A DNA stretch of 20,311 nt from a virus. Where the stretch lies: the IMG/VR virus record IMGVR_UViG_3300017725_001042, positions 1 to 20,311 of that record, one strand, 5' to 3'. Of the stretch, positions 4,036 to 19,793 are shown piece by piece. Made by a program: the position numbers and the translations under genes. A model generated the notes under the pieces. The model did not search any database and had not been told where the DNA came from. It was given only the letters and a program-made list of their open reading frames with translations. Positions within the stretch are counted from its first letter, which is position 1, and each line of letters begins with the position of its first letter.

Positions 4036-4124
4036 CCTTGACATTAGCAATACTTTCTGTTATAATGATACTATTATTACCAACACTTTTATTATGGATG
4101 TGGAATGAAGAAGACCCTAGATAG
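4032..4124 (+). CDS. Possible 30-residue single-pass membrane peptide
   Basis: An ORF of 30 codons opening MTLTLAILSVIMILLLPTLL, with a charged tail NEEDPR. Almost the whole peptide is one hydrophobic segment long enough to span a membrane. The start overlaps the polymerase stop (ATGA), and GGAGG at 4017-4021 is ten bases upstream. The 3' end overlaps the next gene by 20 bases in another frame. This nested position is typical of coupled phage genes. Against it: a consensus promoter (4038-4066) lies inside the ORF, and short AT-rich sequences encode hydrophobic peptides by chance. No function can be given. Confidence 0.4.
   Translation: MTLTLAILSVIMILLLPTLLLWMWNEEDPR
4038..4066 (+). promoter_or_regulatory. 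Perfect-consensus sigma70 promoter after gp43
   Basis: TTGACA (4038-4043), 17 bp spacer, TATAAT (4061-4066), an exact match in both boxes. The expected start point near 4073 is about 30 bases before the 4105 start codon. It would drive the DruA-like gene and perhaps those beyond. Confidence 0.75.
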
Positions 4125-5205: not shown

Positions 5206-5224
5206 TAAATAAAGGAAATTATAT

Positions 5225-6847
5225 ATGTCAAAACCACAAATAACAATTGTAGGCGGAGGTACTGCCGGCCTTATAACTGCTCTTATTTTAAAAGTAAGAT
5301 TAGAAGCAGATGTAAAAATGATAGTACCAAACGATATTGGTATTATAGGTGTTGGTGAAGGCTCAACCGAACATTGGGCAACTTTTATAGAATTCATAGG
5401 CGATACTTTAACTAACAGTTTAATTAAGACCAAAGGTACTATTAAATCTGGTATTATGTTTGAGGGTTGGACACCAAATCGTGGCGATTACATTCACAGT
5501 ATTTTTGGTGACTATACTAACAAAGTAGGTATGTCAGATTTTATCGCTACTAAATTTATGGGAGATGGTTGGACAAATAGAGATTTTATAGGACCAGAAT
5601 TAAATCAAAATGTTATTGCTGATTACTATGGTCCAGACCAAAAGAGACAAGAAGCTGGTGGTTATTTTCAATTTCATTTTAATACAAATGAACTAAACAA
5701 ATATTTAACTGAACAGGCTAACAATTGGGGTATAGAAATTGTAGATGATAAAGTCCTTGAAGTTATGCAAGATGAAACAGGCATATCAGAGGTAAAAGGT
5801 GAGAAAGATAATTATAAATCAGATTTTTGGATTGACAGTACAGGTTTTAGAAGAGTATTGATGACACCATTAGGTGCTAAGTGGGTATCATATGGTGATA
5901 TGTTACCACTAAAAGAAGCAATTGCTTTTCCTACAAAAGAATTAGATTATTATCCAATGCACACACAAGCATTAGCAATGAAGGCCGGTTGGAAGTGGAG
6001 AATACCTACTTATGGCAGATTTGGTAATGGTTATATTTACGATACAAACTTTATTACTAAAGACCAGGCATATGATGAAGTGTGTCAATTAATGGAAGAA
6101 GATGTTGAAATTGGTAAACATATCAAATTTACTCCAGGAAAATTAGATAAAGTAGCAATTAAAAATTGTGTTGCAATAGGCCTATCAGGTAATTTTTTAG
6201 AACCATTAGAAGCAACATCAATAGGTTCATCTATTCAACAAGCATTTTCTTTAATGCACCTTTTAATTGATGGTAAATTATCAGATTACGATAGAGAAGA
6301 ATATAACAAAGGTACAGATATTCTTTTAGACAACATGAGAGATTTTGTGGCTCTACATTATATTAATGAAAATAGAAGTAGTGATTTCTGGAAACATTGT
6401 GCTACACTACCTAGACCAGAAACACTTAAAACAATGATGACAATATGGAAAGAAAGACCTATGACAGGATTGGACATGGCAAGAATATATGGCCAAACTG
6501 AATATTTAATGTTTTCAGAAACCAACTTTAATCATATAGCTTATTTTCATGGTCTTCTAACGAGTGAAGTTTGTAAAAAATATAACGACAATATCGCCAT
6601 TGGTTTAAGTGAAAGTGTCTACCAAAAGGAATATATTAGAACTTTACAGTTTAGGTTCAGAGAAAATACTAGTATTGATGTCGGTATCATTCCACATGAA
6701 GACTATATAAGAGAGTTGCATAGGTTAAACGGCGACTATAAATCAATAAAATACCATTATTTTTTAGACAGGTATAATAATATGAAGATGACACCTATTC
6801 CTTCAGATAAGGATTATGTTGAACATTCCACCATTGACAAAAGCTAA
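5225..6847 (+). CDS. Flavin-dependent (tryptophan-type) halogenase
   Basis: A 540-residue member of the FAD-dependent halogenase family, which makes hypohalous acid from FADH2, O2 and halide and uses it to halogenate aromatic compounds. Visible features are the N-terminal FAD loop GGGTAG (10-15); the catalytic-type lysine, Lys74, in TIKSGIMFEGW; the family motif WxWxIP as WKWRIP (256-261); and SGNFLEPLEATS (321-332), where Glu329 matches the second catalytic residue of PrnA-type enzymes. The length is normal. A related cyanophage halogenase, VirX1, has been shown to be active, so a functional enzyme is plausible. The substrate cannot be read from sequence. A flavin reductase partner is not seen in the window. 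It has its own promoter upstream and a -35 box of the next promoter near its stop. Confidence 0.92.
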   Translation: MSKPQITIVGGGTAGLITALILKVRLEADVKMIVPNDIGIIGVGEGSTEHWATFIEFIGDTLTNSLIKTKGTIKSGIMFEGWTPNRGDYIHSIFGDYTNKVGMSDFIATKFMGDGWTNRDFIGPELNQNVIADYYGPDQKRQEAGGYFQFHFNTNELNKYLTEQANNWGIEIVDDKVLEVMQDETGISEVKGEKDNYKSDFWIDSTGFRRVLMTPLGAKWVSYGDMLPLKEAIAFPTKELDYYPMHTQALAMKAGWKWRIPTYGRFGNGYIYDTNFITKDQAYDEVCQLMEEDVEIGKHIKFTPGKLDKVAIKNCVAIGLSGNFLEPLEATSIGSSIQQAFSLMHLLIDGKLSDYDREEYNKGTDILLDNMRDFVALHYINENRSSDFWKHCATLPRPETLKTMMTIWKERPMTGLDMARIYGQTEYLMFSETNFNHIAYFHGLLTSEVCKKYNDNIAIGLSESVYQKEYIRTLQFRFRENTSIDVGIIPHEDYIRELHRLNGDYKSIKYHYFLDRYNNMKMTPIPSDKDYVEHSTIDKS

Positions 6848-6862
6848 CTAGTAGTGTATATT
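6834..6862 (+). promoter_or_regulatory. sigma70-like promoter for uvsX
   Basis: TTGACA (6834-6839), 17 bp spacer, TATATT (6857-6862). The -35 box is in the last codons of the halogenase gene. Transcription would start near 6869, ahead of the GAGGTGA ribosome binding site of uvsX. Confidence 0.65.
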
Positions 6863-6886
6863 ATAACAAAAGTGAGGTGAAAAAGT

Positions 6887-7915
6887 ATGAGTAATTTTTT
6901 AACAGATATTATTAAGACAACAGGCAACGAATACGCCACATTGGCTAAAGACGGTGTTGCCGGAGGAGATGTGAGTGGATTTATCGACACAGGTTCGTAT
7001 TCATTCAATGCTCTTCTATCAGGTTCCATTTATGGTGGCCTGCCAAACAGTAGAATTACGGCAATCGCCGGTGAAGCTGCAACAGGTAAAACATTCTTTG
7101 CATTAGGTGTTGTTAAGTCTTTTTTAGAACAAGACAAAGAAGCAGGTGTGATTTACTTCGAGAGTGAAAATGCAGTTTCTAAAGACATGATTGAAAGTCG
7201 TGGTGTAGATAGTAGTAGAATAGTTGTAATGCCAGTTTCAACAGTACAAGAATTTAGAACACAATCAATCAAAGTCATTGAAAAATATTTAGAACAACCA
7301 GAGGGTAGTAGAAAACCTATGATGTTTGTATTAGATAGTTTAGGTATGTTATCTACTACAAAAGAAATGGAAGATACGGCTGCTGGTAAAGAGACAAGAG
7401 ATATGACAAGGTCACAAATTGTTAAATCTACTTTCCGTGTATTGACTTTAAAACTAGGTCAAGCAGGTGTTCCTATGATTATGACCAATCACACATATGA
7501 TGTTATTGGTTCTATGTTCCCTCAAAAAGCAATGGGTGTCGGTTCAGGTTTGAAGTACGCTGCTTCATCAATCATCTATCTAGGTAAACGAAAAGAAAAA
7601 GAAGGTACCGAAGTAGTTGGTAATATTGTACATTGTAAAAATTATAAGTCCAGAATAACAAAAGAGAATGCTCAAATTGATGTAAGACTATCATACAAAC
7701 AAGGTTTAGATAGACATTATGGTCTGTTAGAACTAGGTGAAGAGTGTGGTGTGTTTAAGAAAGTATCTACTAGATATGAAATGCCAGATGGCACAAAAGT
7801 ATTTGGTAAATCTATCAACACAGAGCCTGAAAAATATTTTACAAAAGAGGTATTGGATAAGATTGATGAACATTGCAAACAAAAATTTACCTACGGACAA
7901 GACGAAGACGAGTAG
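6887..7915 (+). CDS. uvsX: UvsX recombinase (RecA family)
   Basis: A 342-residue RecA-like strand-exchange ATPase. Walker A is GEAATGKT (62-69), the strand with the catalytic glutamate is IYFESENA (90-97), and Walker B is FVLDS (148-152). A substrate-binding region follows with TNHTYD and a [17 protein letters not shown] segment typical of RecA/UvsX. It acts on single-stranded DNA in recombination-dependent replication and repair, with UvsY and gp32 encoded elsewhere. The length is a little below T4 UvsX. The ATG at 6887 follows GTGAGGTGA at good spacing. The next gene probably starts inside its 3' end. Confidence 0.95.
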
Positions 7916-8195: not shown

Positions 8196-9546
8196 TAGAA
8201 TTGAAGCAACTATATTAAGTAATCTCTTCTTCAATGAAGATTACACAAGAAAGGTTTTACCTTTCATCAAAGAAGACTACTTTACAAATAGAACTGAAAA
8301 ACTATTGTACGGCGAAATATATAAGTTTGTTGATAAGTACAAAAACAATCCTACTAAAGACGCCATTCTCATAGAACTTAATCAGAGAAAAGATATTAAT
8401 GAAGAAGAACATACTGCCATAAGACATATGGTTGTAGGTTTAAGTGAAGAAGAAGCCGAACCACAATGGTTGTTAGACACAACAGAAAAGTTTTGTAAAG
8501 ACCGTGCCGTTCACAATGCTGTATTATCTGGTATTACTATTCTTGATGGTAAAGATAAGAAACAAACGGCAGAGGCAATACCACATATTCTATCAGAGGC
8601 ATTGGCCGTTTCATTTGACAAGTCAGTAGGTCACGACTATGTTGAAGACGCAGATAAAAGATTTGAATGGTATCATACCAAAGAGAAGAAGTTTCAGTTT
8701 GACCTAAATTATTTCAATAAGATTACTAAAGGTGGTGTTCCAAGTAAAACTTTGAACATTGCTCTTGCCGGCACAGGCGTTGGTAAATCTTTGTTTATGT
8801 GTCATGTAGCTGCTAGTTATTTACTCCAAGGTCTAAATGTATTATATATCACATTAGAGATGGCAGAGGAAAGAATTGCAGAAAGAATAGACGCTAATCT
8901 ATTCAATGTCACTATGGATGACCTACATGATATGCCTAAACAATTGTATGATAACAAAGTTTCTCAATTGAATAAGAAGACAACAGGCAAGTTAATCATC
9001 AAAGAATATCCTACAGCGTCTGCTCATACAGGCCATTTTAAATCTTTGATTAATGAACTTGCCTTAAAGAAATCATTTAAACCAGATGTTATTTTTATTG
9101 ACTATTTAAATATATGTTCATCAAGTAGATTTAAAGGTGGTAATATATCATCTTACTTCTATATCAAGGCGATTGCTGAAGAGTTAAGAGGTCTTGCAGT
9201 AGAACATAATGTACCTATATTTTCTGCCACACAAACAACAAGAACTGGTTTTGTGAGTACAGATATTGGTCTTGAAGATACTTCCGAATCCTTTGGTCTT
9301 CCGGCAACTGCTGACTTTATGTTTGCCTTAATGTCAAACGAAGAACTAGAAGCACTAGGTCAGATGAAAGTAAAACAGTTAAAGAACAGATATAATGACC
9401 CTAGTATCAACAGAGCATTTATTGTTGGTGTTGACAGAGCAAAAATGAGATTGTATGATGTTGAACAAAACACACAAAACATTGTAGATAGTGGTCAAGT
9501 TAAGAAAGAGGACGCTTACGATAAGTTTAGTGATTTTAAGATATGA
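8188..9546 (+). CDS. gp41: Replicative DnaB-like helicase (T4 gp41-like)
   Basis: A 452-residue hexameric helicase that would unwind DNA 5'-3' at the phage fork and load the primase. The N-terminal helical domain (about 1-100) resembles DnaB/gp41. The RecA-like core has Walker A AGTGVGKS (194-201), the strand LYITLEMAEERIAER (219-233) with the catalytic-type glutamate, and Walker B VIFIDYLNI (301-309). A GVDRAKMRLYDVE segment closes the core. The start codon is GTG at 8188, overlapping the stop of the upstream gene; no other start gives a complete N-terminal domain. Its TGA overlaps the ATG of the following oxygenase gene, and the last 100 bases hold a promoter. Confidence 0.93.
   Translation: MNNRIEATILSNLFFNEDYTRKVLPFIKEDYFTNRTEKLLYGEIYKFVDKYKNNPTKDAILIELNQRKDINEEEHTAIRHMVVGLSEEEAEPQWLLDTTEKFCKDRAVHNAVLSGITILDGKDKKQTAEAIPHILSEALAVSFDKSVGHDYVEDADKRFEWYHTKEKKFQFDLNYFNKITKGGVPSKTLNIALAGTGVGKSLFMCHVAASYLLQGLNVLYITLEMAEERIAERIDANLFNVTMDDLHDMPKQLYDNKVSQLNKKTTGKLIIKEYPTASAHTGHFKSLINELALKKSFKPDVIFIDYLNICSSSRFKGGNISSYFYIKAIAEELRGLAVEHNVPIFSATQTTRTGFVSTDIGLEDTSESFGLPATADFMFALMSNEELEALGQMKVKQLKNRYNDPSINRAFIVGVDRAKMRLYDVEQNTQNIVDSGQVKKEDAYDKFSDFKI
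9431..9459 (+). promoter_or_regulatory. sigma70-like promoter for the oxygenase genes, inside gp41
   Basis: TTGACA (9431-9436), 17 bp spacer, TATGAT (9454-9459). It lies in the 3' end of the helicase gene, and the expected start near 9466 is about 77 bases before the 9543 start codon. Confidence 0.45.
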
Positions 9547-10139
9547 GATATTTAGAAATAGATAATTTTTTAGATGAACAACAAAAGAAGGCTGTATGGT
9601 ATGAACTAGAGGCATTTAATAATAAAGACTATCTTGTCAATAGTAATAAAGAAGATTGGACAACTACAACAGATGAGGTTACAGGAGAAAAATTAGCTTC
9701 TTCGTTTAGAATGTTTCCTAATATAGTTTATTCAGATGTAGGTTTTGATGTGTCACCTATATGTAGAGTAAGATATAAATTACATGAAACAGTAAAAGAA
9801 GTTGCAAAAGGTATACCTGATTTTAGAAATTTTGCCTCTTGTGAAAGTTGGTCTACTATTGCACATTACTATGAAGAAGGTGGTTTTTATAAACCTCACA
9901 CAGACAGAGCCATGTTTACAGCACTCTTATGGTTGGCAAAAGACCAATCGAAGTTTGAAGGTGGAGATATAAAATTTGCAGACTTAAATGAAACATCTAA
10001 ATTTGCAGACAATAAGGTGTTGGTCTTTCCATCATTTTTATTACATGAAAGTACAGCAATTAAATTCAAACAACCGGAGACAAAAGGTTTTGGTAAAGTC
10101 ACATTATCTTACTTCTTCACAACTCACTTTGACAAATAA
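9543..10139 (+). CDS. 2-oxoglutarate/Fe(II) oxygenase, prolyl-4-hydroxylase-like
   Basis: A 198-residue double-stranded beta-helix dioxygenase. The iron triad is HTD (His119, Asp121) and His168 in PSFLLHES. Lys185 in GFGKVTLSYFF takes the place of the usual arginine or lysine that binds 2-oxoglutarate. EGGDIKFADL (139-148) and VLVFPSFLLHES are typical of the prolyl-4-hydroxylase branch. Such enzymes couple 2-oxoglutarate and O2 to hydroxylation of a protein, small molecule or base; the substrate here is unknown. Small versions are common in marine T4-like phages. The start ATG overlaps the gp41 stop (ATGA), and its TAA overlaps the next ATG (TAATG), so three genes are translationally linked. 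Confidence 0.88.
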   Translation: MRYLEIDNFLDEQQKKAVWYELEAFNNKDYLVNSNKEDWTTTTDEVTGEKLASSFRMFPNIVYSDVGFDVSPICRVRYKLHETVKEVAKGIPDFRNFASCESWSTIAHYYEEGGFYKPHTDRAMFTALLWLAKDQSKFEGGDIKFADLNETSKFADNKVLVFPSFLLHESTAIKFKQPETKGFGKVTLSYFFTTHFDK

Positions 10140-10408
10140 TGCCTAGAAAAACACAAAAAGTAAGATTTCATAAAGGCGACAAAAGACCAGGAGGAAATGT
10201 CATTAAAAAACTAACATATACCACATCACCAGTAAAAAGAAAATCTAAAATCGTATGGCAAGTACACGAAAAACCTACCGATAATGTAGTTGGTGAATAT
10301 TATTTTGAAGAAGACGCACAACATTTATGTGACTTTCAAAATAAACATCAAGTATGGTTAGTTAATGGTGGTATTCCCAAGTTTCTTCATAATTTTAGGT
10401 TCGTTTAA
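10139..10408 (+). CDS. Small basic protein, unknown function
   Basis: An 89-residue protein with a strongly basic N terminus (MPRKTQKVRFHKGDKRPGG) and a second half rich in aromatic residues (VWQVHEKPTDNVVGEYYFEEDAQHL is its centre, given here only in outline by position 39-63). No known motif is recognised. It is joined on both sides by one-base TAATG overlaps to 2-oxoglutarate oxygenase genes. It is therefore surely co-translated with them and could be an accessory or substrate protein, by inference. The codon use is like its neighbours. Confidence 0.7.
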   Translation: MPRKTQKVRFHKGDKRPGGNVIKKLTYTTSPVKRKSKIVWQVHEKPTDNVVGEYYFEEDAQHLCDFQNKHQVWLVNGGIPKFLHNFRFV

Positions 10409-10986
10409 TGAAAACCCAATGGATATTTCCAACACCAGTATATTATACTATGTTGGATGATGAAGAAGTCCAAACAGAAATCAATAATAAAATTCATAAA
10501 GTTAACTTTGAATATGGACCTAAATCATGGGGTAAAACTCATATGATTACAACCAATTTTCAAGGTGAATTTAATTGTGTGATAGAAGAACTACAATTAA
10601 ACAAACTAAAAAAGGAAATTGGATTTCATTTAAAGCAATTTATAAATGATACTAATTCAAGATTGCCTAAAGATTTTAAGATTACGGAATCTTGGTTTTC
10701 TAAATTTAATAAAGATGATTTTGGTCACATACACAATCATAGTTTATCAGATGTATCTGGTGTCTATTACTATAAAACAAATGGTGAAGATGGCAGTATA
10801 TTCTTTGAGAATCCTAACGACACAGCAAGTTGTTTTGATTTAACAGTACCACAAACAGATAGATTTTATCACAAACCTGAAGTAGGTAAACTTATATTAT
10901 TTCCACCATATTTAAGACATGGTATATTAAAAAATACTACTGATAATGATAGAATTACCATATCTTTTAATCTAAAATACGCTTGA
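10408..10986 (+). CDS. 2-oxoglutarate/Fe(II) oxygenase, 2OG-FeII_Oxy_5/TIGR02466-like
   Basis: A 192-residue protein of a second oxygenase branch. It opens QWIFPTPVYYTML, the usual start of this family (a short segment naming the F-P-T-P-V). It then has HIHNHSLSDVSGVYYY (107-122) with the first metal ligands among His109 and His111, GSIFFENPN (129-137), and LILFPPYLRHGI (162-173) with the distal His171. DRITISFNL (181-189) carries Arg182 for 2-oxoglutarate. The substrate is unknown. It starts on the stop codon of the basic protein (TAATG). The stop is overlapped by a possible -35 box for the next unit. Confidence 0.88.
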   Translation: MKTQWIFPTPVYYTMLDDEEVQTEINNKIHKVNFEYGPKSWGKTHMITTNFQGEFNCVIEELQLNKLKKEIGFHLKQFINDTNSRLPKDFKITESWFSKFNKDDFGHIHNHSLSDVSGVYYYKTNGEDGSIFFENPNDTASCFDLTVPQTDRFYHKPEVGKLILFPPYLRHGILKNTTDNDRITISFNLKYA

Positions 10987-11017: not shown

Positions 11018-11025
11018 TATAAATA
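11018..11025 (+). promoter_or_regulatory. Possible T4-type late promoter, TATAAATA
   Basis: An exact match to the T4 late promoter octamer. In T4 the start is about six bases past the octamer, here near 11031, which would leave GGAG of the ribosome binding site at the very 5' end of the transcript. That tight spacing lowers confidence. Confidence 0.35.
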
Positions 11026-11039
11026 TATGAGGAGAGCAA

Positions 11040-12305
11040 ATGTTAAACAAGCAACAATCACATCTTATAGAACAAGCTTCTGCTAAGGCAGGAGGTAAAC
11101 TCGAATTCAATATAAAGAAATCGACAAGTAGAATTGTTGTTTACTTTATTAGGGCTTCAAATCGAGCAGACGCTAGACGAAATGTACAGAACCACCTAAA
11201 GGCACAAAAGGTAGTTGTACAAGAGAGAAAGACTAGTCTGTCTAGTGAAAACATTACAGAGTTTACATTAGGTAATTTTACAGTAAGACTTGTTTATAAA
11301 CCTATGTCAGGTGGTATGACAGAGACCACATTAAACTCGACTATTACAGAATTAATACCTTGCATTGCTTTTTTGAATGGTTGTAAAGAGAGAAATCCAG
11401 AGAAACTATATGAAAAGATATTAACATATCCTCAAAAACAAGCTTGTTATCTTGGAAATGACCAAAAAGCAGGTGTAGATTTCATAGAAGATATGCCAAG
11501 GTCTTCCAAGTTTATGGAGAAGATGAAGAACGCAGTTGCTATTACAAAGTTTCTTGAAGATGAAGATAAAAAGAAAAAGATTACAAAGGTATTCTGGACT
11601 TATAGAGCCAAACCTGATGGTGTACCAAAAAATTCACCTGCTGATATAGTTTTATTCTTTGCTGATGGTTCTATTCTCGGGGTGTCCTTGAAGGCTGGTG
11701 GTGAGAGTACAAAAGAACCTCTATTGAACACATATGTAAATAGAGTGTACTACCATTTCGAACCTTCAGGTACGCAGATTAAAAGATTAAAAGAGGACTT
11801 GTATAAAAATACCTATTCTAAAATACCAGGTATTACAAGTAAATCATATGATGAGGGGTCAGAAAGACCAAATACTTTTAATGCATTAGAGGCTTTTGAA
11901 AGAGACAACTTGTCTATGTATGAAAAATACTATGACGCTAACTTGGCTATTATCAGAAACAAATTAATCTATACAATGACCAAAGACTTTGAGACATTTA
12001 AGAAGTATTGTAGAAGTGAGATACTTAAACAAAGTGATGTTCCAGTTATCATAATTAAGGCTGTAAATGACACATACAGAGAGATGAAAGATAGTAATAG
12101 ATTGAATGTATTATTAGCAAAAGCGACAAGTATAGAGGGTATGGTATCTATTTCATCTAAACAAAACTTCGATATTAGAATAAAACGGTATAGTGAAGTG
12201 TTAGGAACCATGAATATGGCAGTCCGGTCTAATAAAGTTGGTGTGGAACACAAATTAGGACAATTTTTCAACTTGGCTGTGAAGTATAATGGTTTAAGTG
12301 GATAA
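11040..12305 (+). CDS. Conserved phage protein with possible PD-(D/E)XK nuclease-like core
   Basis: A 421-residue protein not recognised as a named family. Residues 94-115 hold an ETTLNSTITELIPCIAFLNG helix. Residues about 184-220 hold a strand, then PADIVLFFADG, then SILGVSLKAGG. The D-x(n)-SLK layout (Asp202, Lys218) with a preceding helix carrying Glu95 is like the core of restriction-type PD-(D/E)XK enzymes, where Asp and Lys bind metal. This is a fold guess only. The rest is helical and lysine-rich, without signal peptide or membrane segment. It has a strong ribosome binding site (GAGGAG) and its own promoter candidates, and it stands just before the leader-bearing cluster. Confidence 0.6.
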   Translation: MLNKQQSHLIEQASAKAGGKLEFNIKKSTSRIVVYFIRASNRADARRNVQNHLKAQKVVVQERKTSLSSENITEFTLGNFTVRLVYKPMSGGMTETTLNSTITELIPCIAFLNGCKERNPEKLYEKILTYPQKQACYLGNDQKAGVDFIEDMPRSSKFMEKMKNAVAITKFLEDEDKKKKITKVFWTYRAKPDGVPKNSPADIVLFFADGSILGVSLKAGGESTKEPLLNTYVNRVYYHFEPSGTQIKRLKEDLYKNTYSKIPGITSKSYDEGSERPNTFNALEAFERDNLSMYEKYYDANLAIIRNKLIYTMTKDFETFKKYCRSEILKQSDVPVIIIKAVNDTYREMKDSNRLNVLLAKATSIEGMVSISSKQNFDIRIKRYSEVLGTMNMAVRSNKVGVEHKLGQFFNLAVKYNGLSG

Positions 12306-12395: not shown

Positions 12396-13610
12396 ATGTT
12401 TAGTTTTAAAGGGTTCCTATCAAGTGGAACAAATACACATCTCGAACACCTAGAAGACGATATAATAAATCGTGGTTCAAAAGGTGGCGAAAACGCAATT
12501 AACTTTTTAAAGTCAACTAGAAATATGTTGGCTGGTTCTGTGGGCGGTAAGCTCAATGTAACCGTTAAGTGGGACGGAGCTCCTGCCATTGTTTGTGGTG
12601 TAAATCCAGAAAACAATAAATTCTTCGTTGGTACTAAATCAGTATTCAATGTCACTCCCAAAATAAATTATACAGTAGCGGACATCAATCGTAACCATTC
12701 AGGCGTAGTTGCAAAAAAACTAAAAGTTTGTTTGAGTGAGTTAAGTAGAGTAGGTATTACCGACATATTACAAGGCGACCTATTGTTTACAGATGATACT
12801 AAATCGGTCACAATAGATGGTGAAAGTATGATTTCTTTTACACCTAATACAATCACATATGCAGTACAAGCTTCTAGTGGTGTTGGTAAAAAGATTGCTC
12901 GTGCTAAAATGGGTATAGTGTTTCATACTCGTTATAGTGGTAAAACAATGGACAAACTAAATGCTAGTTTTGGATCCGTAAAAGGTTCTACATCAAGTAG
13001 AGTTTGGATGGCTTCTGCTCAATATAAAGATACATCTGGTTCAGTAATGTTCAATAAATCTGAACTTGCGGCTTTTGATAATCAAATAAAAATGGCTCAA
13101 GGCTCTTTATCAAAAGCTGCCCCTATACTAAACGAAATGTCAAAGACAAGTCAAGACGCAAACTCGGTTGGTTACAGATTAAAAACTTACTTCAACATGT
13201 ATATTAGAACCACAAAAGGTGGTATGGAAAAAGTTTCAACAATGCAAAAACAATTTGCTGACTACTATGAAAATATGTTGCAAGCAGAAATAGACAGCAG
13301 AAAAACACCAAAAGGTCAAGAGAAATTTATTAAACAGAAAAAAGAGGGTTTGGACTTTATCAAAAGAAATCAACAAGCATTATACTTTGCGATTGCAAGT
13401 CATATCACATTAGCAAATTGTAAAAATACTTTACTACAAAAGATGAACCAGATACAGAGTATCGGTAACTTCATTAGAACATCAACAGGTTATAGAGTGA
13501 CAGCACCAGAGGGTTATGTTGCAGTTGATAGAGTTGCTGGTGCAGTTAAACTGGTTGATAGATTAGAATTTAGTAGAACCAATTTTACATTACCAAAAGG
13601 ATGGAATTAG
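12396..13610 (+). CDS. Conserved phage protein with KWDG (nucleotidyltransferase/ligase-like) motif
   Basis: A 404-residue protein. VTVKWDGAPAIVCG (55-68) has the K-x-D-G form of motif I of ATP-dependent DNA and RNA ligases, where the lysine (Lys58) takes the AMP. Downstream, LQGDLLF (125-131) could match motif III/IIIa and KMGIVFHTRYSG (171-182) motif IV. A clear motif V (K-x-K) is not seen, so ligase activity is unproven. The C-terminal half is helical and lysine-rich. The N terminus MFSFKGFLSSG resembles the amphipathic leaders of the genes that follow but lacks the cleavage-site glutamate. Its TAG overlaps the GTG start of adenylate kinase by one base. Confidence 0.6.
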   Translation: MFSFKGFLSSGTNTHLEHLEDDIINRGSKGGENAINFLKSTRNMLAGSVGGKLNVTVKWDGAPAIVCGVNPENNKFFVGTKSVFNVTPKINYTVADINRNHSGVVAKKLKVCLSELSRVGITDILQGDLLFTDDTKSVTIDGESMISFTPNTITYAVQASSGVGKKIARAKMGIVFHTRYSGKTMDKLNASFGSVKGSTSSRVWMASAQYKDTSGSVMFNKSELAAFDNQIKMAQGSLSKAAPILNEMSKTSQDANSVGYRLKTYFNMYIRTTKGGMEKVSTMQKQFADYYENMLQAEIDSRKTPKGQEKFIKQKKEGLDFIKRNQQALYFAIASHITLANCKNTLLQKMNQIQSIGNFIRTSTGYRVTAPEGYVAVDRVAGAVKLVDRLEFSRTNFTLPKGWN

Positions 13611-14185
13611 TGAAGAGTTTTAAAGATTATATATTCGAAGCGTTAGGTAGAAAACGAATTATAATGATAGGTGGTCCAGGTTCTGGTAAATCTACCTATT
13701 CAGAAATTATATCTAAAGAACTAGAGATACCACATATCTATACTGGTGACATGATGAGAAAGTTGGCAAAGACAGATACACCAGATGGTAAGAAAGTAAA
13801 AGAATTATTAGCGAAAGGTGAATTTGCACCTACACCTATTGTTATCAAAGCAGTAAGTGATAGACTAGAACAACCAGACGCACAAAAAGGTTACATCTTT
13901 GATGGTTTTCCAAGAAGTGTAGAACAAGCAGAGAAGATGAAAACCGCTGATATAAAATATGACTATGTAATTAACCTAGTCGTATCAGAGGAAGAAGTTA
14001 TTAAAAGGTTAACTGCTAGAGGTAGAGCAGATGATAAACCAGAAATTATTAAGAAAAGAATTAAAGTGTATCACGAACTAACTGCTCCATTATTACAACA
14101 TTATAAAGATGAGATAATAAATATTAAAGCAGAGGGTGGCACACCAGAGGGTATAGCAAAAACTATAATTAGTAAGGTAAAATGA
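13610..14185 (+). CDS. adk: Adenylate kinase with probable capsid-targeting leader
   Basis: A 191-residue enzyme that interconverts ATP + AMP and 2 ADP. The P-loop is GGPGSGKST (21-29), the NMP-binding region has YTGDMMR (44-50), DGFPR is at 98-102, and the short zinc-free LID has RLTARGRADD (133-142). GTG at 13610 is preferred to ATG at 13601. AAGGA (13597-13601) is eight bases from the GTG but touches the ATG, and the GTG shares a base with the upstream TAG, like the TAATG joints elsewhere. The start then reads MKSFKDYIFE-ALGRKR. That is eleven residues laid out like the T4 internal protein III leader MKTYQEFIAE-A, with an I-x-E-A site of the gp21 protease type. Packaging into the capsid is inference. 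Confidence 0.9.
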   Translation: MKSFKDYIFEALGRKRIIMIGGPGSGKSTYSEIISKELEIPHIYTGDMMRKLAKTDTPDGKKVKELLAKGEFAPTPIVIKAVSDRLEQPDAQKGYIFDGFPRSVEQAEKMKTADIKYDYVINLVVSEEEVIKRLTARGRADDKPEIIKKRIKVYHELTAPLLQHYKDEIINIKAEGGTPEGIAKTIISKVK

Positions 14186-14877
14186 AAAATTTTGACGACA
14201 TAAGATTTCAAGACCTACAAGAAGGCTTGTACGATAAAAATATATTCAAGGCATTCTTCCTTGCAGGTGGTCCAGGTTCTGGTAAATCATTTGTGACTAA
14301 AGGTGCATTTGGCGGAACAGGATTAAGAGTTATTAATTCAGATAATGCATTTGAAATGTCATTGAAAAAAAATAATCTATCTCTTAAAATGCCTGAAGAT
14401 GAGGCAGAGGCTAGAGATATTATTAGAGACAGAGCAAAGGCTATGACTGGCAATCAAATGGACTTATCAATCAAAGGTAGATTAGGTATGGTCATTGATG
14501 GTACTGGTAGAGATTACGATAAGATTAAATCACAGACGGCACAGTTAAGACAATTAGGTTATGATTGTTATATGATATTTGTCAACACAAGTTTAGATGT
14601 TGCATTAGAAAGAAACGCAAAAAGAGATAGAACTGTACCAGAATATATTACAAGAAAATCATGGTCGGCAGTACAAGCCAATATTGGTAGATTTCAAAAC
14701 CTATATGGTATGTCTAATATGATTATTGTTGACAACAGTAAAAATGAGAAAGAACTTACAACAATTGTTATGAATAAAGTTGATAAGTCAGTTAGAAGAT
14801 TATTAGGTAATAAAATTCAGTCATACACAGCTAAAAGATGGATGGCAACAGAAAGAAAATTAAAGAGAAGAACATGA
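14182..14877 (+). CDS. P-loop kinase, polynucleotide-kinase/zeta-toxin-like
   Basis: A 231-residue P-loop NTPase. Walker A is GGPGSGKS (29-36). GMVIDGTGRDYDKI fits the second strand and substrate region of AAA_33/zeta-type kinases, and a MIFVNTSLDVALERNAKRDR segment resembles the lid arginines of these kinases. It could phosphorylate nucleic acid ends or a nucleotide sugar; the sequence does not decide. The N terminus MKNFDDIRFQDLQE-GLYDK is a short leader ending in an L-x-E-G site like gp21 prohead protease targets. The start overlaps the adk stop (ATGA) with TAAGG upstream, and its own TGA overlaps the next gene. Confidence 0.75.
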   Translation: MKNFDDIRFQDLQEGLYDKNIFKAFFLAGGPGSGKSFVTKGAFGGTGLRVINSDNAFEMSLKKNNLSLKMPEDEAEARDIIRDRAKAMTGNQMDLSIKGRLGMVIDGTGRDYDKIKSQTAQLRQLGYDCYMIFVNTSLDVALERNAKRDRTVPEYITRKSWSAVQANIGRFQNLYGMSNMIIVDNSKNEKELTTIVMNKVDKSVRRLLGNKIQSYTAKRWMATERKLKRRT

Positions 14878-16913
14878 GATTACTAGAAAGCATTATTGAT
14901 ATACCGAGAAAGAACTATGCGCCAGCAGTATTTGATGACGCTGATACTTCTAATCCTAAAATCAAACCTAGTGTTGTTGTATTGATTAACAAACAACTAG
15001 AGATGTTTGAAGAAGAATATCCTGTTTTAAAAGTTTCTCTTATTGGTTCTATTCTTACAAAGAGATATAGAAATGACGCAGACTTGGATTTAAATGTATT
15101 GTTTGATGTACCTGCTGATAAGCAAGAAGAAGAAAGATTAAGACTATCTAAAAAGTATTTGTCTGTAAGTAATCCAGATAACATTCAAGGTAAATTAATA
15201 CCTGGTACTAAACACCCTATCAATTATTATTTTATAACTGATAAAAAAACTTATGATGACCAAAACAAAAAGGCAGACGCCGTGTTTGACATTGAGGGTA
15301 ATAAGTTTGTAAAAAGACCAGAAGATTTTAAGTTTGATGTTAATGTTTATATTGCAGACTTCAATAAAAAAGTACAAGAGTTAGATGTAGTCAAAGGTGA
15401 AATGAAAAGAGATATCATTGACTATGATGAACTAAAAGAATTACAACCAGATGATATTCTAAACCTACAAGAAAAGATTAATGAGAAATTAGAAGAGATA
15501 GAAGATAGTATAAAAGATATTATTAAGATTGGTGACGGCCTTGACGCAGATAGAAGAGCAGCCTTTGATACTGATATGACACCAGACCAAATACAAAAGT
15601 TTGGTATTAAGAATAGATTACCTAAAAATGTGGTCTATAAAATGTTAGAGAAATACCACTATCTTGCTTTCTATAAGAAGTGTAAAAAGATTTTAGATGA
15701 TGGTGAGGTAACAGACGCAGAGATTGATAGTCTCAAAGAGGCAAAAAGTAAGACAGTTGCATTTACATTTGGTAGATTTAATCCACCTACAATTGGTCAC
15801 GAAAAACTTATTAAGAAAGTTAAGTCGTTATCAACAAATGACCATAAAATTTATTTAAGTAGAAGTAATGACCCTAAAAAGAATCCATTAACTCCTACAC
15901 AAAAACTATCTTATATGAAGAAATTGTTTCCTGCTCATGCAAGAAATATAGAAATCAATAAGACTAATATGATATTAGATATTGCTACCATGTTGCATAA
16001 TAAAGGTTATACAAGCATAACAATGGTTGCAGGTTCAGATAGAGTAAGAGAATTCGAAACTATACTAAAGAAATATAATGGTGTATCATCAAGACATGGT
16101 TTATATGACTTCGAAGATATCAAAGTTGTATCTGCTGGTGAAAGGGATCCTGACGCCGAGGGTGCCACAGGTATGAGTGCTAGTAAGATGAGAGACGCAG
16201 CTTCAAAAGGTGATTTAGATAGTTTCAAAAAAGGATTACCAAATAGTACATACGCACAAGCCATGATGAAAGATGTTAGAAAAGGTATGAATTTAGCGGC
16301 TAGTTATGTACCTGAAAACAGAATAGTATCATTAAAAGAATTTGAACAACAACAAGTAAGAGACCTTTATATCAGAGAACAAATCTTTAACATAAATGAT
16401 AAAGTAAAATACAATGACATAGAGGGTAAAGTTGTTAGAAGAAGTACGAATTATGTTGTATTAGAAGATACTAATAATAACATGCACAAAGCATGGATAT
16501 GGGATTGTACACCTATTGCAGGTGATAAAGAAGCAATCATTAGAGAATACAACACTAATATTGATTATGGATTTGAGGCAGTATCTAAACCAGACAGTAA
16601 AAAGATGAAAGGTTTTGCCGAGTGGAACAATGAAAGTTATGATATAGGTCAAGATTATGCACAACACACAATGAAAATGACACCAGGCCAAGATGGATAT
16701 GACCCTAAACATAAGGGTGATAACTACAAACCATCTAAATCTGGTAGTGGTAAACCAGTCACAACTAGACCAGAGACTACTGATATATCTAAAAAAGATA
16801 TCAAAGAATGGTCATCTTCAAAATCCACAATAGATAAATATAGAGAAAGATATAAAGAACATTGGAAGGCCAAGTTAAATGAGGTTGTCCAAAAAATTCT
16901 GGAGAAACTATAA
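14874..16913 (+). CDS. Fusion of pol beta-type nucleotidyltransferase and NMNAT-like adenylyltransferase
   Basis: A 679-residue protein. Residues about 40-130 look like a polymerase beta-type nucleotidyltransferase: GS at 58-59 and the metal-binding DADLD (68-72). A coiled, acidic linker follows (about 165-220). From residue 291 a cytidylyltransferase-fold domain begins: FTFGRFNPPTIGH (297-309) and, later, MSASKMR (434-440), the signature of NMN or pantetheine-phosphate adenylyltransferases. Residues about 505-547 look like a small KOW/SH3 barrel, and the tail is basic. An L-K-E-A site (289/290) lies just before the adenylyltransferase domain. The ATG at 14874 (ATGA overlap) is preferred over one at 14838 inside the previous gene. 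NAD salvage is a plausible role, by inference. Confidence 0.75.
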   Translation: MRLLESIIDIPRKNYAPAVFDDADTSNPKIKPSVVVLINKQLEMFEEEYPVLKVSLIGSILTKRYRNDADLDLNVLFDVPADKQEEERLRLSKKYLSVSNPDNIQGKLIPGTKHPINYYFITDKKTYDDQNKKADAVFDIEGNKFVKRPEDFKFDVNVYIADFNKKVQELDVVKGEMKRDIIDYDELKELQPDDILNLQEKINEKLEEIEDSIKDIIKIGDGLDADRRAAFDTDMTPDQIQKFGIKNRLPKNVVYKMLEKYHYLAFYKKCKKILDDGEVTDAEIDSLKEAKSKTVAFTFGRFNPPTIGHEKLIKKVKSLSTNDHKIYLSRSNDPKKNPLTPTQKLSYMKKLFPAHARNIEINKTNMILDIATMLHNKGYTSITMVAGSDRVREFETILKKYNGVSSRHGLYDFEDIKVVSAGERDPDAEGATGMSASKMRDAASKGDLDSFKKGLPNSTYAQAMMKDVRKGMNLAASYVPENRIVSLKEFEQQQVRDLYIREQIFNINDKVKYNDIEGKVVRRSTNYVVLEDTNNNMHKAWIWDCTPIAGDKEAIIREYNTNIDYGFEAVSKPDSKKMKGFAEWNNESYDIGQDYAQHTMKMTPGQDGYDPKHKGDNYKPSKSGSGKPVTTRPETTDISKKDIKEWSSSKSTIDKYRERYKEHWKAKLNEVVQKILEKL

Positions 16914-17263
16914 TGAAGTCATTAAAAGAGTGGGATAATATAGACGAGAAGTGTGAAGAGTGTATATTCGAACATGAGAGTGAGCCTTTAGAAGAGGCTG
17001 AACATCAAGGTAAGAAAGTCACACTAAACAATCCTATGAGAACTCCAGGTGGACCTAAAAAGTTTGCCGTATATGTGAAAAATGAAACCGGTAATGTGGT
17101 CAAAGTCACATTTGGTGACCCTAATATGGAAATCAAAAGAGACGACCCTAATCGTAGAAAAAATTTCAGAGCCAGACACAATTGTGAGAATCCTGGTCCA
17201 AAAACTAAAGCTAGATATTGGTCTTGTTATCAATGGAGAAGCGGAGCAAAGGTAGACAACTAA
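16913..17263 (+). CDS. Small Cys/His-containing conserved phage protein
   Basis: A 116-residue protein. After an acidic N terminus (MKSLKEWDNIDEKCEECIFE) comes an L-E-E-A site at 27-30, then a compact basic domain with GGPKKFAVYVKN, VTFGDPNMEIKRDD, ARHNC and KARYWSCYQW. The domain is one I remember from many large marine phages, but I cannot name its function. The conserved His and Cys residues in RHNC and YWSC could bind zinc. If the L-E-E-A site is cut, the acidic part would be removed and the compact domain left. It starts on the stop of the preceding gene (TAATG). Confidence 0.7.
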   Translation: MKSLKEWDNIDEKCEECIFEHESEPLEEAEHQGKKVTLNNPMRTPGGPKKFAVYVKNETGNVVKVTFGDPNMEIKRDDPNRRKNFRARHNCENPGPKTKARYWSCYQWRSGAKVDN

Positions 17264-17264
17264 A

Positions 17265-19793
17265 ATGAAAAAAATAAGCGCATACAGAAAGACATTCTCC
17301 GAGGCTTTACAACAAGTCAGAGAGCCTATTAACGAATTTAAAAAAATGACAGTCACATTCAAATCTATGGCTGATATGTCAAAGGCCTCAACTGACTTAG
17401 CAAAACAAGGTTTTACGATTGACGCAAAAGGTATGGTTATGAAAGTAGATGGTAAAGGTGCAGACCTTAACAAGTATGCTACAGACCTTAAAAACTTTTA
17501 TCATGCTTCAGTAAGAGCAGAGAGTTATGCCATTGATGAAAGCGCTGACGAAGATAATTACGACCCTATTACAGAGGCTTGTTGGGTAGGTTGGACTCAA
17601 AGAGGCATGAAAATGAAAGGTGGTAAACAAGTACCTAATTGTGTCAAAGAAGAAATGACAAATGAGGAACTTGAACAAGACTACAATGAAAATGTTGATG
17701 ATTATTTCAAGTCTAAACTAGACGCAAAACAAATTCAAAATTTAAAAACTGTATGGTCAAGAAAGAACGCAAGTGATATTACACCTGCTATCAAGAAAAT
17801 GCTTAAAGCAATGGATGTTCCAACACAACTTGCTATTAAACATGCAAACATCAATCAGATTTCAAAACTAATTGAAGAGAATGAAGACCTAATAGATGAA
17901 AATTTTAGTAAAGCACAACTAGATAAATTAGCCAAAGAGTATGAAAGCTTGAGAGGCAAAAGAATATCTATGGATAATGCAAACAAATTAAGAAAAATGT
18001 TTGACAAGATACCTGATAGTGCATTAAAAGATTTAAAGAACAAAAAGATACCTTTCTTATCAGCCATGGCATTATCAAGAATGGTACAAAAAGGAATGAA
18101 GTTAGAAGATTGGGTGCCTGCTTACGAAGATGTAATCAATGAGGGTACTGGTACTATTACTAATTTCAGAAACGATAGAGAAGTCACTAACATGATGTCT
18201 TTAGCAAAACAACACGGCGTCACAGCAACATTAGTTGGTTCTGGTGCAGGTGCAAAGGTTATGTTAAAAGGTAACATGAGAAAAATATTAGACATGCAAT
18301 TAGCCGCTCAAAGAAACGGTCTAAAAGCTGAAGAAATATTATTTGTAGAAGTAAAAGAGGAAGAAGAACTACCTAAAAAGGTCGCTAAGAAGAATGAACC
18401 TGACCAAATTGCTGATACAGAAACAAAAAAAGAAAGTGGTGACGCAGAGAAATTAAAGTCTGAACTTGAAAAGAAAGACGCAGAAATCAATGCTCTAAAA
18501 ACTAAAGCAGAGACAGAGAAAGCTAAAGTTGCCAAAAAAGAAACAGAGAAGTTGGTAAATCCAGAAACTGGTGAGCCATTACTTCAAGTTGGTATTGCAT
18601 ACAAACATCTTAAAGATAAGATGATGAAACAAAAAGAAGCCGTTAAAGAAATGTGGGAAGAAAATCTTAATGAATTTTCAACTCAACAAATTAAAATGGC
18701 ATATGGTATCTTAAATGACCCTAGATATAAACAAGGTAATTATTCAGGTGCAGTTAAGGCTATTGAGAAACTTGCAACAGGTTTATCTAAACATAAAGAT
18801 GTTGCTAACGCATTAAAAAGAGCAAATGAAGCCTATGAAAATATGTCAAAAGATAAAGCATATGCAATTGGTATGTCAACTGCTAAAAAGAAATTCAATG
18901 ATGAAAAACCATTAGAGAAATCTACTATCAAAAAGGGACATGAGATTGCTGATAAACTTCTAGGTAAGAAAGAAGATTTAGACGCACAACCACAAGACAA
19001 AGATGTTAAGTCAAAAGATGGTACTCAACCTAAAAAGTATTATAAAAATTTATCAAAAGATACTAAAGACAGTAGAGCAAATCACTTTGCTAAAAAAGAT
19101 ACAACTAAAAACGATAACAGTCCAGCACCTGGTGATAAAGACGCAGAAACAAAACCGTCTCAATTCACACAAAAGTACAAGAAGATGTATGGTGAGGGTA
19201 AGATGTCACAGATTGACGCCATGCAAAAAGATGGTAAGTCATCAAGTGAGATTGCTAAGTTAATGAAGTTACCGTTGAGAGTGGTAAAATCAATTCTTGG
19301 AGAACATGTTGAACATCCTGCTAAACAGATGTTCGAACAAATAGAAGGATTGAAAAACAAAGCAGAAAAATCTGGAATGCCATATGGTATTCTAAAAAAA
19401 GTTTACGATAGAGGCATGGCCGCTTGGAGAGGTGGACACCGACCAGGTACTACACAGCAACAATGGGCTTTCGCTAGAGTAAATTCATTCATAACAAAAT
19501 CCTCTGGAACATGGGGTGGTGCAGATAAAGATTTAGCTGCTAAAGTAAAAGGTGAGAGTTTAGAAGAAGCAAGTCTATATGCTTTTAAAGAATATGAACC
19601 ATCACAATCTTATGAAGCAAGTAGAGATATGAAAAATGTTGAAGACGCAATTAAAAGAGCGGGTGGTAGAATTAAAAGTAAAGAAAAACCTACACAAAGA
19701 GAACCAAATGCTTCATTTGAAATTGAAACAGGTAATCCTAATGCAGTTAAAGCTGCTATTAAAAAGGCAGACCCCGAATTTAATGTAGATTAA
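17265..19793 (+). CDS. Large multidomain, possibly capsid-internal, phage protein
   Basis: An 842-residue, lysine- and glutamate-rich protein with no signal peptide or membrane segment. Segments in order: leader MKKISAYRKTFSE-A; a small alpha/beta module (29-85); CWVGW...VPNCV (106-126); a helical region (140-290); a second alpha/beta module (294-365); a charged coiled coil (390-430); a helical part; a Tyr/Lys-rich domain with KKYYKNLSK (590-640); a possible helix-turn-helix (647-679); a conserved domain with GHRPGTTQQQWAFARVNSF (724-742), reminiscent of DUF5824; and a third alpha/beta module (782-842). Sites of the gp21 form occur at IDE-S (92), ITE-A (104), INE-G (293) and LEE-A (768), mostly between segments. 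A scaffold or cleavable internal protein is the best guess. Confidence 0.65.
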   Translation: MKKISAYRKTFSEALQQVREPINEFKKMTVTFKSMADMSKASTDLAKQGFTIDAKGMVMKVDGKGADLNKYATDLKNFYHASVRAESYAIDESADEDNYDPITEACWVGWTQRGMKMKGGKQVPNCVKEEMTNEELEQDYNENVDDYFKSKLDAKQIQNLKTVWSRKNASDITPAIKKMLKAMDVPTQLAIKHANINQISKLIEENEDLIDENFSKAQLDKLAKEYESLRGKRISMDNANKLRKMFDKIPDSALKDLKNKKIPFLSAMALSRMVQKGMKLEDWVPAYEDVINEGTGTITNFRNDREVTNMMSLAKQHGVTATLVGSGAGAKVMLKGNMRKILDMQLAAQRNGLKAEEILFVEVKEEEELPKKVAKKNEPDQIADTETKKESGDAEKLKSELEKKDAEINALKTKAETEKAKVAKKETEKLVNPETGEPLLQVGIAYKHLKDKMMKQKEAVKEMWEENLNEFSTQQIKMAYGILNDPRYKQGNYSGAVKAIEKLATGLSKHKDVANALKRANEAYENMSKDKAYAIGMSTAKKKFNDEKPLEKSTIKKGHEIADKLLGKKEDLDAQPQDKDVKSKDGTQPKKYYKNLSKDTKDSRANHFAKKDTTKNDNSPAPGDKDAETKPSQFTQKYKKMYGEGKMSQIDAMQKDGKSSSEIAKLMKLPLRVVKSILGEHVEHPAKQMFEQIEGLKNKAEKSGMPYGILKKVYDRGMAAWRGGHRPGTTQQQWAFARVNSFITKSSGTWGGADKDLAAKVKGESLEEASLYAFKEYEPSQSYEASRDMKNVEDAIKRAGGRIKSKEKPTQREPNASFEIETGNPNAVKAAIKKADPEFNVD

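Follow-up and report, generated by a model that had tools for sequence, protein, structure and literature searches.

In phage T4, the internal proteins (IPs) IPI to IPIII are directed to the capsid by an N-terminal propeptide of 10 to 19 residues, a conserved leader borne by diverse cargo, with hydrophobic residues at positions 4 and 7 and a glutamate just before the cut, at P1 (PMC9026906, PMC3012670). For IPIII, the first 10 residues suffice for targeting; mutagenesis assigned targeting to residues 4 and 7 and processing to residues 8 and 10, and an Asp at position 10 blocks processing but leaves targeting intact (PMC9026906). These T4 leaders read MKTYQEFIAE-A on IPII and IPIII, MKTFKEFTSTTTPVSTITE-A on IPI and MAIFQIINE-S on gp2 (the hyphen marks the cut). 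In this study, we describe leaders of the same type in the virus record IMGVR_UViG_3300017725_001042, a stretch of 20,311 nucleotides (nt) hereafter named the window, where T4-like replication genes (gp43, UvsX, gp41) are followed at 12,396 to 19,793 by a cluster coding for a DUF6267 protein, an adenylate kinase (Adk), a P-loop kinase, a nucleotidyltransferase fusion, a small Cys/His-containing protein and an 842-residue protein. We propose, with a probability of about 0.7, that this cluster is a late-expressed enzyme set, packaged into the capsid at least in part by means of T4-type leaders, and probably injected.

The likeness to described systems is partial. T4 cargo are small anti-restriction proteins, whereas those of the window are enzymes; the marine leaders and the residue after the cut (P1') are more variable, and the marine address is predicted from sequence. 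Among cyanophages, a cytidylyltransferase, or NMNAT-like, virion protein (T4-GC190) has a homologous domain, lies in a syntenic block and bears a leader in four isolates where it was detected in virions, but the window domain is fused to a Pol-beta-type nucleotidyltransferase and stands beside adk and a Pnk-like kinase. The papers on T4-GC190 report its detection and, in their accessible portions, propose no targeting signal. In other phage groups, likened here without leader comparison, an N-terminal signal sends DarB of phage P1 into the head, and the prohead protease cuts ejection proteins of SPN3US and phiKZ after Glu. Finally, a Pnk-like kinase model near an RNA-ligase-like protein recalls the Pnk and RNA ligase pair of T4; the T4 pair is made after infection, whereas that of the window, whose substrate is a prediction from models, is apparently addressed to the capsid. 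In the open-licence PMC literature, no paper was found, by title or abstract start, that proposes capsid targeting for cyano- or pelagiphages, and none of the papers on "capsid targeting sequence" concerned marine phages by title.

The first-pass annotation had listed sites of the form (I/L)xE(A/G/S) along the cluster, and all of them are present: IFE-A at residue 13 of Adk, LQE-G at 14 of the P-loop kinase, LKE-A at 289 of the fusion (which also has LLE-S at 5), LEE-A at 28 of the Cys/His protein, and four in the 842-residue protein (92, 104, 293 and 768). The window DUF6267 protein has none. That annotation proposed site density as a test, and held that equal density in the replication proteins would refute its reading. 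Equal density is what we found: the six cluster proteins have 9 sites in 2466 residues (3.65 per 1000), against 4 in 1623 residues for gp43, UvsX and gp41 together (2.46 per 1000, p=0.36) and 10 in 4203 residues for all 14 other window proteins (2.38 per 1000, p=0.24). Only the comparison with shuffled cluster proteins gave an excess, and a weak one (mean of 4.3 sites versus 9 observed, P=0.033). Density thus fails to discriminate the cluster from replication proteins, and was dropped as a test of the address. Position is what holds: a site cutting within the first 30 residues is found in 4 of the 6 cluster proteins versus 1 of the 14 others (p=0.014).

Table 1. Late promoter, cluster genes and their leaders in the window (hyphens in peptides mark the predicted cut).
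Feature	Position	Strand	Remarks
T4-type late promoter TATAAATA	11018..11025	+	sole exact match on either window strand; putative function
h11040	11040..12305	+	421 residues, PHROG 2496; first gene past the late promoter, promoter-proximal; no canonical leader
DUF6267 (PF19782) protein	12396..13610	+	KWDG motif; RNA-ligase-like model; leader MFSFKGFLSSG at 12396-12428
Adenylate kinase (Adk)	13601..14185	+	17-residue N-terminal extension; leader MELVKSFKDYIFE-A at 13601-13639
P-loop kinase	14182..14877	+	AAA_33 / zeta-toxin Pfam; polynucleotide-kinase-like model; leader MKNFDDIRFQDLQE-G at 14182-14223
Pol-beta-type nucleotidyltransferase + cytidylyltransferase-like domain fusion	14874..16913	+	short leader MRLLE-S; internal LKE-A at 15732-15743
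Cys/His-containing small protein	16913..17263	+	leader MKSLKEW..., LEE-A at residue 28 (16913-16996)
842-residue protein	17265..19793	+	DUF5824 C-terminal region; divergent leader MKKISAYRKTFSE-A at 17265-17303

Conservation was counted after removal of identical rows and of rows under half length. The leader site is kept in 54 of 55 Adk relatives, in all 57 P-loop kinases and at the N-terminus of all 59 fusions (whose start at 14874 is more plausible than 14838, judging from the N-termini of relatives); the fusion junction LKE-A is kept in 50/59 and the Cys/His LEE-A in 25/37. Residue 19 of Adk corresponds in alignment to residue 2 of the E. coli enzyme (1ake) and, the extension being outside the Adk core, a cut after E13 would leave the kinase complete. 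The leader Glu is invariant in 32/32 Adk rows (the alignment anchor required a Glu), and its invariance is hardly structural, since the neighbouring residues on both sides vary. It is also present in 16/16 further Adk genes fetched through DUF6267 (counted by eye). Among 58 distinct P-loop kinase N-termini, P1 is always Glu, P1' always Gly and P3 always Leu or Ile, with a variability of 2.5 bits at P2 and of 2.5 to 3.4 bits from P10 to P4; here the Glu adjoins the conserved domain, so that its invariance alone could be structural. The Cys/His site is set back from the start, as in T4 IPI, and the fusion LKE-A sits between the two nucleotidyltransferase domains, just before GRFNPP, where stand-alone cytidylyltransferases bear their leader. 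Leader residues are modelled at low confidence in the DUF6267 protein (1-14) and the P-loop kinase (8-13), with a predicted local distance difference test (pLDDT) under 50.

Of the four sites of the 842-residue protein, only that at 293 is kept (18/30); those at 92, 104 and 768 are found in the window protein alone (1/30 each) and were rejected as real sites. These three singletons, together with the equal density, are what would be expected if the sites had arisen by chance in Glu-rich, Leu-rich proteins, an explanation that stands for most internal sites of the 842-residue protein. For the leaders of Adk, the P-loop kinase and the cytidylyltransferase it is refuted and, because the leaders are N-terminal, conserved and similar across families, we regard it as very improbable for the set.

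The DUF6267 protein is a separate case. As had been remarked of the protein with the KWDG motif, it has an amphipathic start without the glutamate: hydrophobic residues 4 and 7 are retained and the cleavage Glu is gone. The targeting half of the leader would thus have been kept and the processing half lost, which would explain that remark. The full leader is matched in 14/203 members of the family. The extension of the address to the whole cluster is not supported, as the DUF6267 protein here lacks the cleavage Glu, and the leaderless one of S-SZBM1 is absent from the 30-row virion table of that phage.

In relatives, the leaders read for instance MKSFKQYFFE-A or MKTFLDFITE-A on Adk, MYSFKQYLNE-A on DUF6267 proteins, MKTLKELKSFISE-G on P-loop kinases, MKQFKDYILE-S or MRFKDFINE-S on fusions and MQGFKTFLSE-A on gp15 of Melnitz. 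On cytidylyltransferases, they are MKKFSAFLNE-A (S-SM1), MRFRQFIIE-A (S-SZBM1), MKNFSSFLTE-A (S-CREM2), MKSFLQFLKE-A (S-SCSM1) and MKRYTNFLSE-A (S-CREM1). A cytidylyltransferase leader is present in 14 of 17 isolates examined, including the four examined and reported as virion-positive, and in 80/80 IMG/VR loci kept as closest relatives (best 80 of 126); the annotated cytidylyltransferases of HTVC008M, S-PM2 and C48C1 have none. The claim that the shared feature is a protein address, and not a pathway, is thereby supported: one leader type is found on non-homologous proteins, as with the T4 capsid-targeting leader. Two observations may be added. Three loci (L247 at 6429, L245 at 5958, L249 at 2871) encode, shortly after DUF6267, a 95-residue protein starting with MK(T/S)FK(Q/E)FI(K/N)E-AAVD.KGLKSSTGG, which is, from its sequence, a new predicted cargo with the same leader. 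Stenotrophomonas phage DLP_6 (L181), whose record gives no family, has DUF6267 and cytidylyltransferase genes one gene apart at 4001-7892, with the respective leaders MMKFTQFLAE-S and MKNIKDILE-A.

We scanned whole genomes with a leader regular expression (regex) demanding a small P1'. Among 254 T4 open reading frames (ORFs) it has four matches, IPII, IPIII, gp2 and gp24, all head proteins, for a random-internal null of 0.4 on 249 annotated T4 proteins. Three matches each were found in S-SM1, S-SZBM1 and S-CREM2, one being the cytidylyltransferase and the remainder short ORFs or late internal starts (including a 109-residue ORF of S-SZBM1, MELLMKSFKSFLSE-S). Melnitz has six, including gp15 and the cytidylyltransferase, and HTVC008M one, the P-loop kinase. 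We then turned to families. Adk relatives are encoded by 236 IMG/VR stretches, of which the best 80 were kept; in the 23 families with at least 4 members at these 80 loci, the regex matches Adk in 76/80, the fusion component in 25/129, the P-loop kinase in 10/79 and DUF6267 in 2/54, and nothing in the 19 others. Matching families are therefore 4 of 5 in the cluster (Cys/His being unlisted on its own, seemingly inside the fusion component) versus 0 of 18 elsewhere (p=0.0006). On 240 loci and 64 families, nine families have any match, six of them from the cluster (Adk, fusion/cytidylyltransferase, gp126, P-loop kinase, DUF6267, Cys/His); the three others match in 2/32, 1/21 and, for UvsX, 1/43 members. 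This makes 6 of 12 cluster families versus 3 of 52 others (p=0.0008, the grouping being made after the fact). No match was found in 9 distinct N-termini of h11040.

The hydrophobic 4 and 7 pattern alone is found in 5 of 249 T4 proteins (gp61.1, IPI, IPII, IPIII and gp54), and in 4 of 198 HTVC008M proteins (gp130, gp139, gp142 and gp143), which all fall inside a span of 19 genes around the cluster, chosen as a region after the matches were seen. In the window, 3 of 20 proteins have it in exact register (DUF6267, P-loop kinase, Cys/His); the Adk register is shifted by upstream residues, and the fusion and the 842-residue protein are without it. Distinct N-termini of relatives have it in 22/22 for DUF6267, 28/36 for the P-loop kinase, 21/32 for Cys/His, 13/29 for Adk and 4/36 for the fusion, and in none of 38 for the 842-residue family or of eight other families tested, for a random internal rate of 0.17%. 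The 842-residue family may have a second leader form, which fits the window protein, HTVC008M gp132 and Melnitz gp20, and none of 249 T4 proteins nor any ORF of S-SM1, S-SZBM1 and S-CREM2.

A profile built from marine leaders only ranks, among 249 T4 proteins, gp61.1 first, gp2 fourth, IPI eighth, IPIII ninth and IPII tenth. With leave-one-family-out profiles, 28/28 Adk are above the 95th percentile of controls. The converse test used a single-sequence profile made from the T4 IPII/III leader and was too weak, recognising 29% of Adk and 0 to 14% of the other five families above that percentile. As a side observation, T4 gp61.1 (L088; NC_000866 18966-19130, minus strand), top of the marine-trained profile and annotated as hypothetical, starts with MKTFKEFIKED, and is possibly an unrecognised capsid-targeted protein. 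Likewise, HTVC008M gp139, gp142 and gp143 (at 113582, 114973 and 115347), just downstream of the cluster, have the 4/7 core and are candidate packaged proteins.

The end of the replication genes is marked by the exact late promoter TATAAATA, 15 nt upstream of the gene preceding DUF6267, and this promoter would open a transcription unit containing the cluster. In relatives, an exact copy is present within 80 nt upstream of h11040 in 9/13, DUF6267 in 28/52 and Cys/His in 11/59, and in the same interval upstream of gp41 (0/35), UvsX (0/21), h7737 (0/33), h10139 (0/38), OG1 (0/7) and Adk (0/78) none was found. With one mismatch allowed, there was no excess over shuffles, and only exact matches were used. 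HTVC008M has 20 copies of TATAAATA on one strand and a single copy on the other, and in S-SCSM1 the motif NATAAATA precedes 5 of the 7 block genes tagged as virion proteins (see below) and 0 of 17 other genes tested. Incidentally, of the 20 HTVC008M genes (L082-L084) preceded by NATAAATA at no more than 60 nt, 9 show a spacing of 5 nt between motif and start codon, which suggests that late mRNAs of this phage could be leaderless or nearly so.

Virion proteomes of four cultured relatives contain the orthologous cytidylyltransferase. It is T4-GC190 among the 41 virion proteins of S-SM1 (PMC3037559), _140 in the 30 rows of Table 1 for S-SZBM1, along with _139 and _136 (PMC9146016), ORF154 in Table 3 for S-CREM2, along with 155, 156 and 160 (PMC10665884), and the NMNAT/cytidylyltransferase ORF91 among the 45 virion proteins of S-SCSM1 (PMC9602691). 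S-CBWM1 is also named as having an NMNAT-like virion protein (PMC10665884, PMC9602691). For S-PM2, the accessible part of PMC3037559 gives the cytidylyltransferase as undetected, in an older study that also missed seven structural proteins. The 30 rows for S-SZBM1 include neither _142 nor _141, the DUF6267 protein (PMC9146016), which has no leader. In the S-SCSM1 GenBank record, virion tags are carried by _89 to _93, _95 and _97, that is 7 of the 9 genes of the syntenic block, and by 0 of the 11 replication-side genes _78 to _88. PHROG 4359 is common to the window 842-residue protein, S-SZBM1_139 and S-SCSM1_92, and PHROG 9737 to the first two. A correspondence between S-SCSM1_90 and h11040 was considered and is not shown: there is no BLAST match at 1e-3 against window or HTVC008M proteins, and the PHROG differs.

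Several results weigh against packaging by means of the leader, beyond the lack of a density excess. First, the leader regexes were composed after the leaders had been seen, and the Adk leader was one of six seed patterns that fetched the 80 loci, which are therefore partly leader-selected. Leave-one-family-out profiles recognise only 14% of P-loop kinases, 38% of fusions, 12% of DUF6267, 31% of Cys/His and 34% of the 842-residue family; gapless profiles are poor on P-loop kinase and fusion leaders because leader length varies. T4 Alt, a known injected protein, ranks 176/249 in the marine-leader profile, so that the leader is not the sole route into the capsid. S-SZBM1_139 and _136 and S-SCSM1_90, _92 and _93 are virion-detected without canonical leader, and HTVC008M gp127, gp128 and gp130 have no E-(A/G/S) leader. 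In the 16 further Adk genes, the leader Glu is followed by Ala in 7 and by Val, Glu, Gln or Lys in the remaining 9, which means that a small P1' is not general (the regex matches 6/16). The searchable literature (open-licence PMC) yielded no virion data on either Adk or the P-loop kinase. The S-CREM1 virion list counts 14 proteins, four structural and ten without assigned function (PMC9964418), and the leader-bearing cytidylyltransferase of that phage is apparently not in this shallow list, as far as the accessible text goes. Together with the varied residue after the Adk Glu, this lowers our confidence slightly. Lastly, the S-CREM2 authors allow for carry-over in their data (PMC10665884), and the S-SCSM1 translational repressor _70 is likewise tagged as a virion protein, so that carry-over of abundant proteins is possible.

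Carry-over is part of a rival account, in which these are ordinary auxiliary metabolic or nucleotide enzymes used during replication, their leaders serve for docking into an enzyme complex, and their detection in virions is due to carry-over of abundant late proteins. Besides the repressor and the S-CREM1 list, it can draw on the description of pelagimyophage adk as an auxiliary metabolic gene (PMC7029224), and on the fusions of cluster domains to one another in relatives, which a complex would predict. Against it stand the late promoter at the cluster boundary, with no exact copy before the replication genes tested, and the likeness to the T4 capsid-targeting leader in genome scans. Moreover, gp43, UvsX and gp41 are not in the 30 S-SZBM1 rows and are untagged in S-SCSM1, while the rows available for S-CREM2 have no replication protein except a Cas9-like nuclease. 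The S-SZBM1 table also contains the leader-bearing cytidylyltransferase and not the adjoining leaderless DUF6267 protein. On balance we find this account unlikely. The first-pass proposal of capsid packaging is partly supported, by the late promoter, by the cytidylyltransferase in virions of S-SM1, S-SZBM1, S-CREM2 and S-SCSM1 and by the tagged S-SCSM1 block; the S-CREM1 list, which does not name this enzyme, weighs against it.

Capsid packaging of the cluster is thus supported by homology and synteny, and a scheme can be drawn from the sequence and the T4 system. Late transcription would start from TATAAATA; the leader, with its hydrophobic residues around positions 4 and 7, would bind the scaffold core; a gp21-type prohead protease would cut after the leader glutamate and free the enzyme, and may also cut the fusion at LKE-A between its domains; the enzymes would then be ejected along with the DNA, active before any phage gene expression. 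A gp21 is annotated in HTVC008M, and the window record is without one; alignment with T4 predicts major capsid protein maturation sites FLSE-A in Melnitz, LLTE-A in S-CREM2 and FLGE-I in HTVC008M. We infer injection by analogy with T4. The proteins might instead stay in the head as structural or scaffold-core components, their activity unused in the new host: T4 IPs are core proteins, presence in the virion alone is no proof of ejection, and the leaderless, undetected S-PM2 cytidylyltransferase indicates that packaging may be dispensable. A dead core protein would not need the conserved catalytic-type motifs (KWDG in 33/33 DUF6267 rows, kinase residues in 26/26), and this second account appears quite improbable. 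Within the set, which we favour as packaged and probably injected, Adk, the P-loop kinase and the cytidylyltransferase lineage have a well-supported address; DUF6267 and Cys/His likely have one too, and for the 842-residue protein it is uncertain.

As for the enzymes themselves, adenylate kinase is a secure assignment by sequence (PF00406, 148.7 bits vs a gathering score of 26.8). The P-loop kinase model (pLDDT 86) resembles polynucleotide kinase most closely, in a tie with other P-loop kinases: 4gp7 (Z 16.5, root-mean-square deviation (rmsd) 2.7, 164 aligned residues), 2rhm (Z 16.5), phosphoseryl-tRNA kinase (15.7), and T4 Pnk 1ltq (13.7), near adenylate kinases. By sequence, it is best matched by zeta toxin 1gvn (E=0.0011), and G29, G30, P31, G32, G34, K35, D54, R144, R148 and R150 are invariant in the 26 kinase rows. 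In the DUF6267 protein, K58, D60 and G61 of KWDG (motif I, KxDG) are the invariant residues. Its model (pLDDT 76, poor C-terminus) weakly resembles RNA ligases: a single RNA ligase fills the top seven VIA rows (5cou, Z 7.0, rmsd 4.1, 178 aligned residues), followed by T4 Rnl2 (2hvr, Z 5.8) and Rnl1 (2c5u, Z 5.6), with squalene epoxidase (Z 6.0) between, all under the safe level for a fold match. Foldseek gave no match with E under 0.001, and the family profile against PDB sequences reached only E=0.79. The fusion combines NTP_transf_2 and CTP_transf_like (Pfam); phmmer against PDB gave one weak, irrelevant match. Relatives have cytidylyltransferase fusions with the DUF5824 region of the 842-residue protein (HTVC008M, Melnitz), with the Cys/His domain (Melnitz) and with DUF6267 (PHROG 455), and these connect most of the cluster to the one enzyme that has virion evidence; for Adk and the P-loop kinase, leader and position are the only links.

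The best phage-record match of the window DUF6267 protein is in Pelagibacter phage HTVC008M (51% identity), whose gene order is that of the window (gp41, gp126, DUF6267, gp128, P-loop kinase, cytidylyltransferase, gp131, gp132), adk being absent at the corresponding place. Amid the window replication genes, 5225-6847 and 9543-10986 code for what we take to be a tryptophan-halogenase-like protein and two 2OG-Fe(II)-oxygenase-like proteins; genes of both kinds are annotated in HTVC008M. Between gp43 and the halogenase-like gene, 4105-5205 has a DruA (PF14236) match (E=2.3e-6, 27.4 bits vs a cut-off of 27).

Because the cargo comprises a Pnk-like kinase, an RNA-ligase-like DUF6267 protein, Adk and nucleotidyltransferases, it would most likely serve to repair or modify RNA ends and nucleotides as infection begins, and we hypothesise a role in RNA-end repair. 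Taken further, and tentatively, marine T4-like phages may carry a capsid RNA-repair kit, made of a 5'-kinase, an RNA ligase, template-independent nucleotidyltransferases and an Adk feeding them, by which host RNA, including tRNA cut by suicide defences, would be healed or modified before the first phage transcript; in that case, the adk product would be injected. Marine T4-like phages are highly abundant, and their adk and cytidylyltransferase genes are currently read as auxiliary metabolic genes acting during replication. If the capsid address is true, these enzymes would act at time zero in the next cell, which would change their interpretation. It would also allow injected proteins to be recognised in unannotated phages by a sequence rule, and provide a mechanism for the repeated, unexplained presence of enzymes in cyanophage virions.

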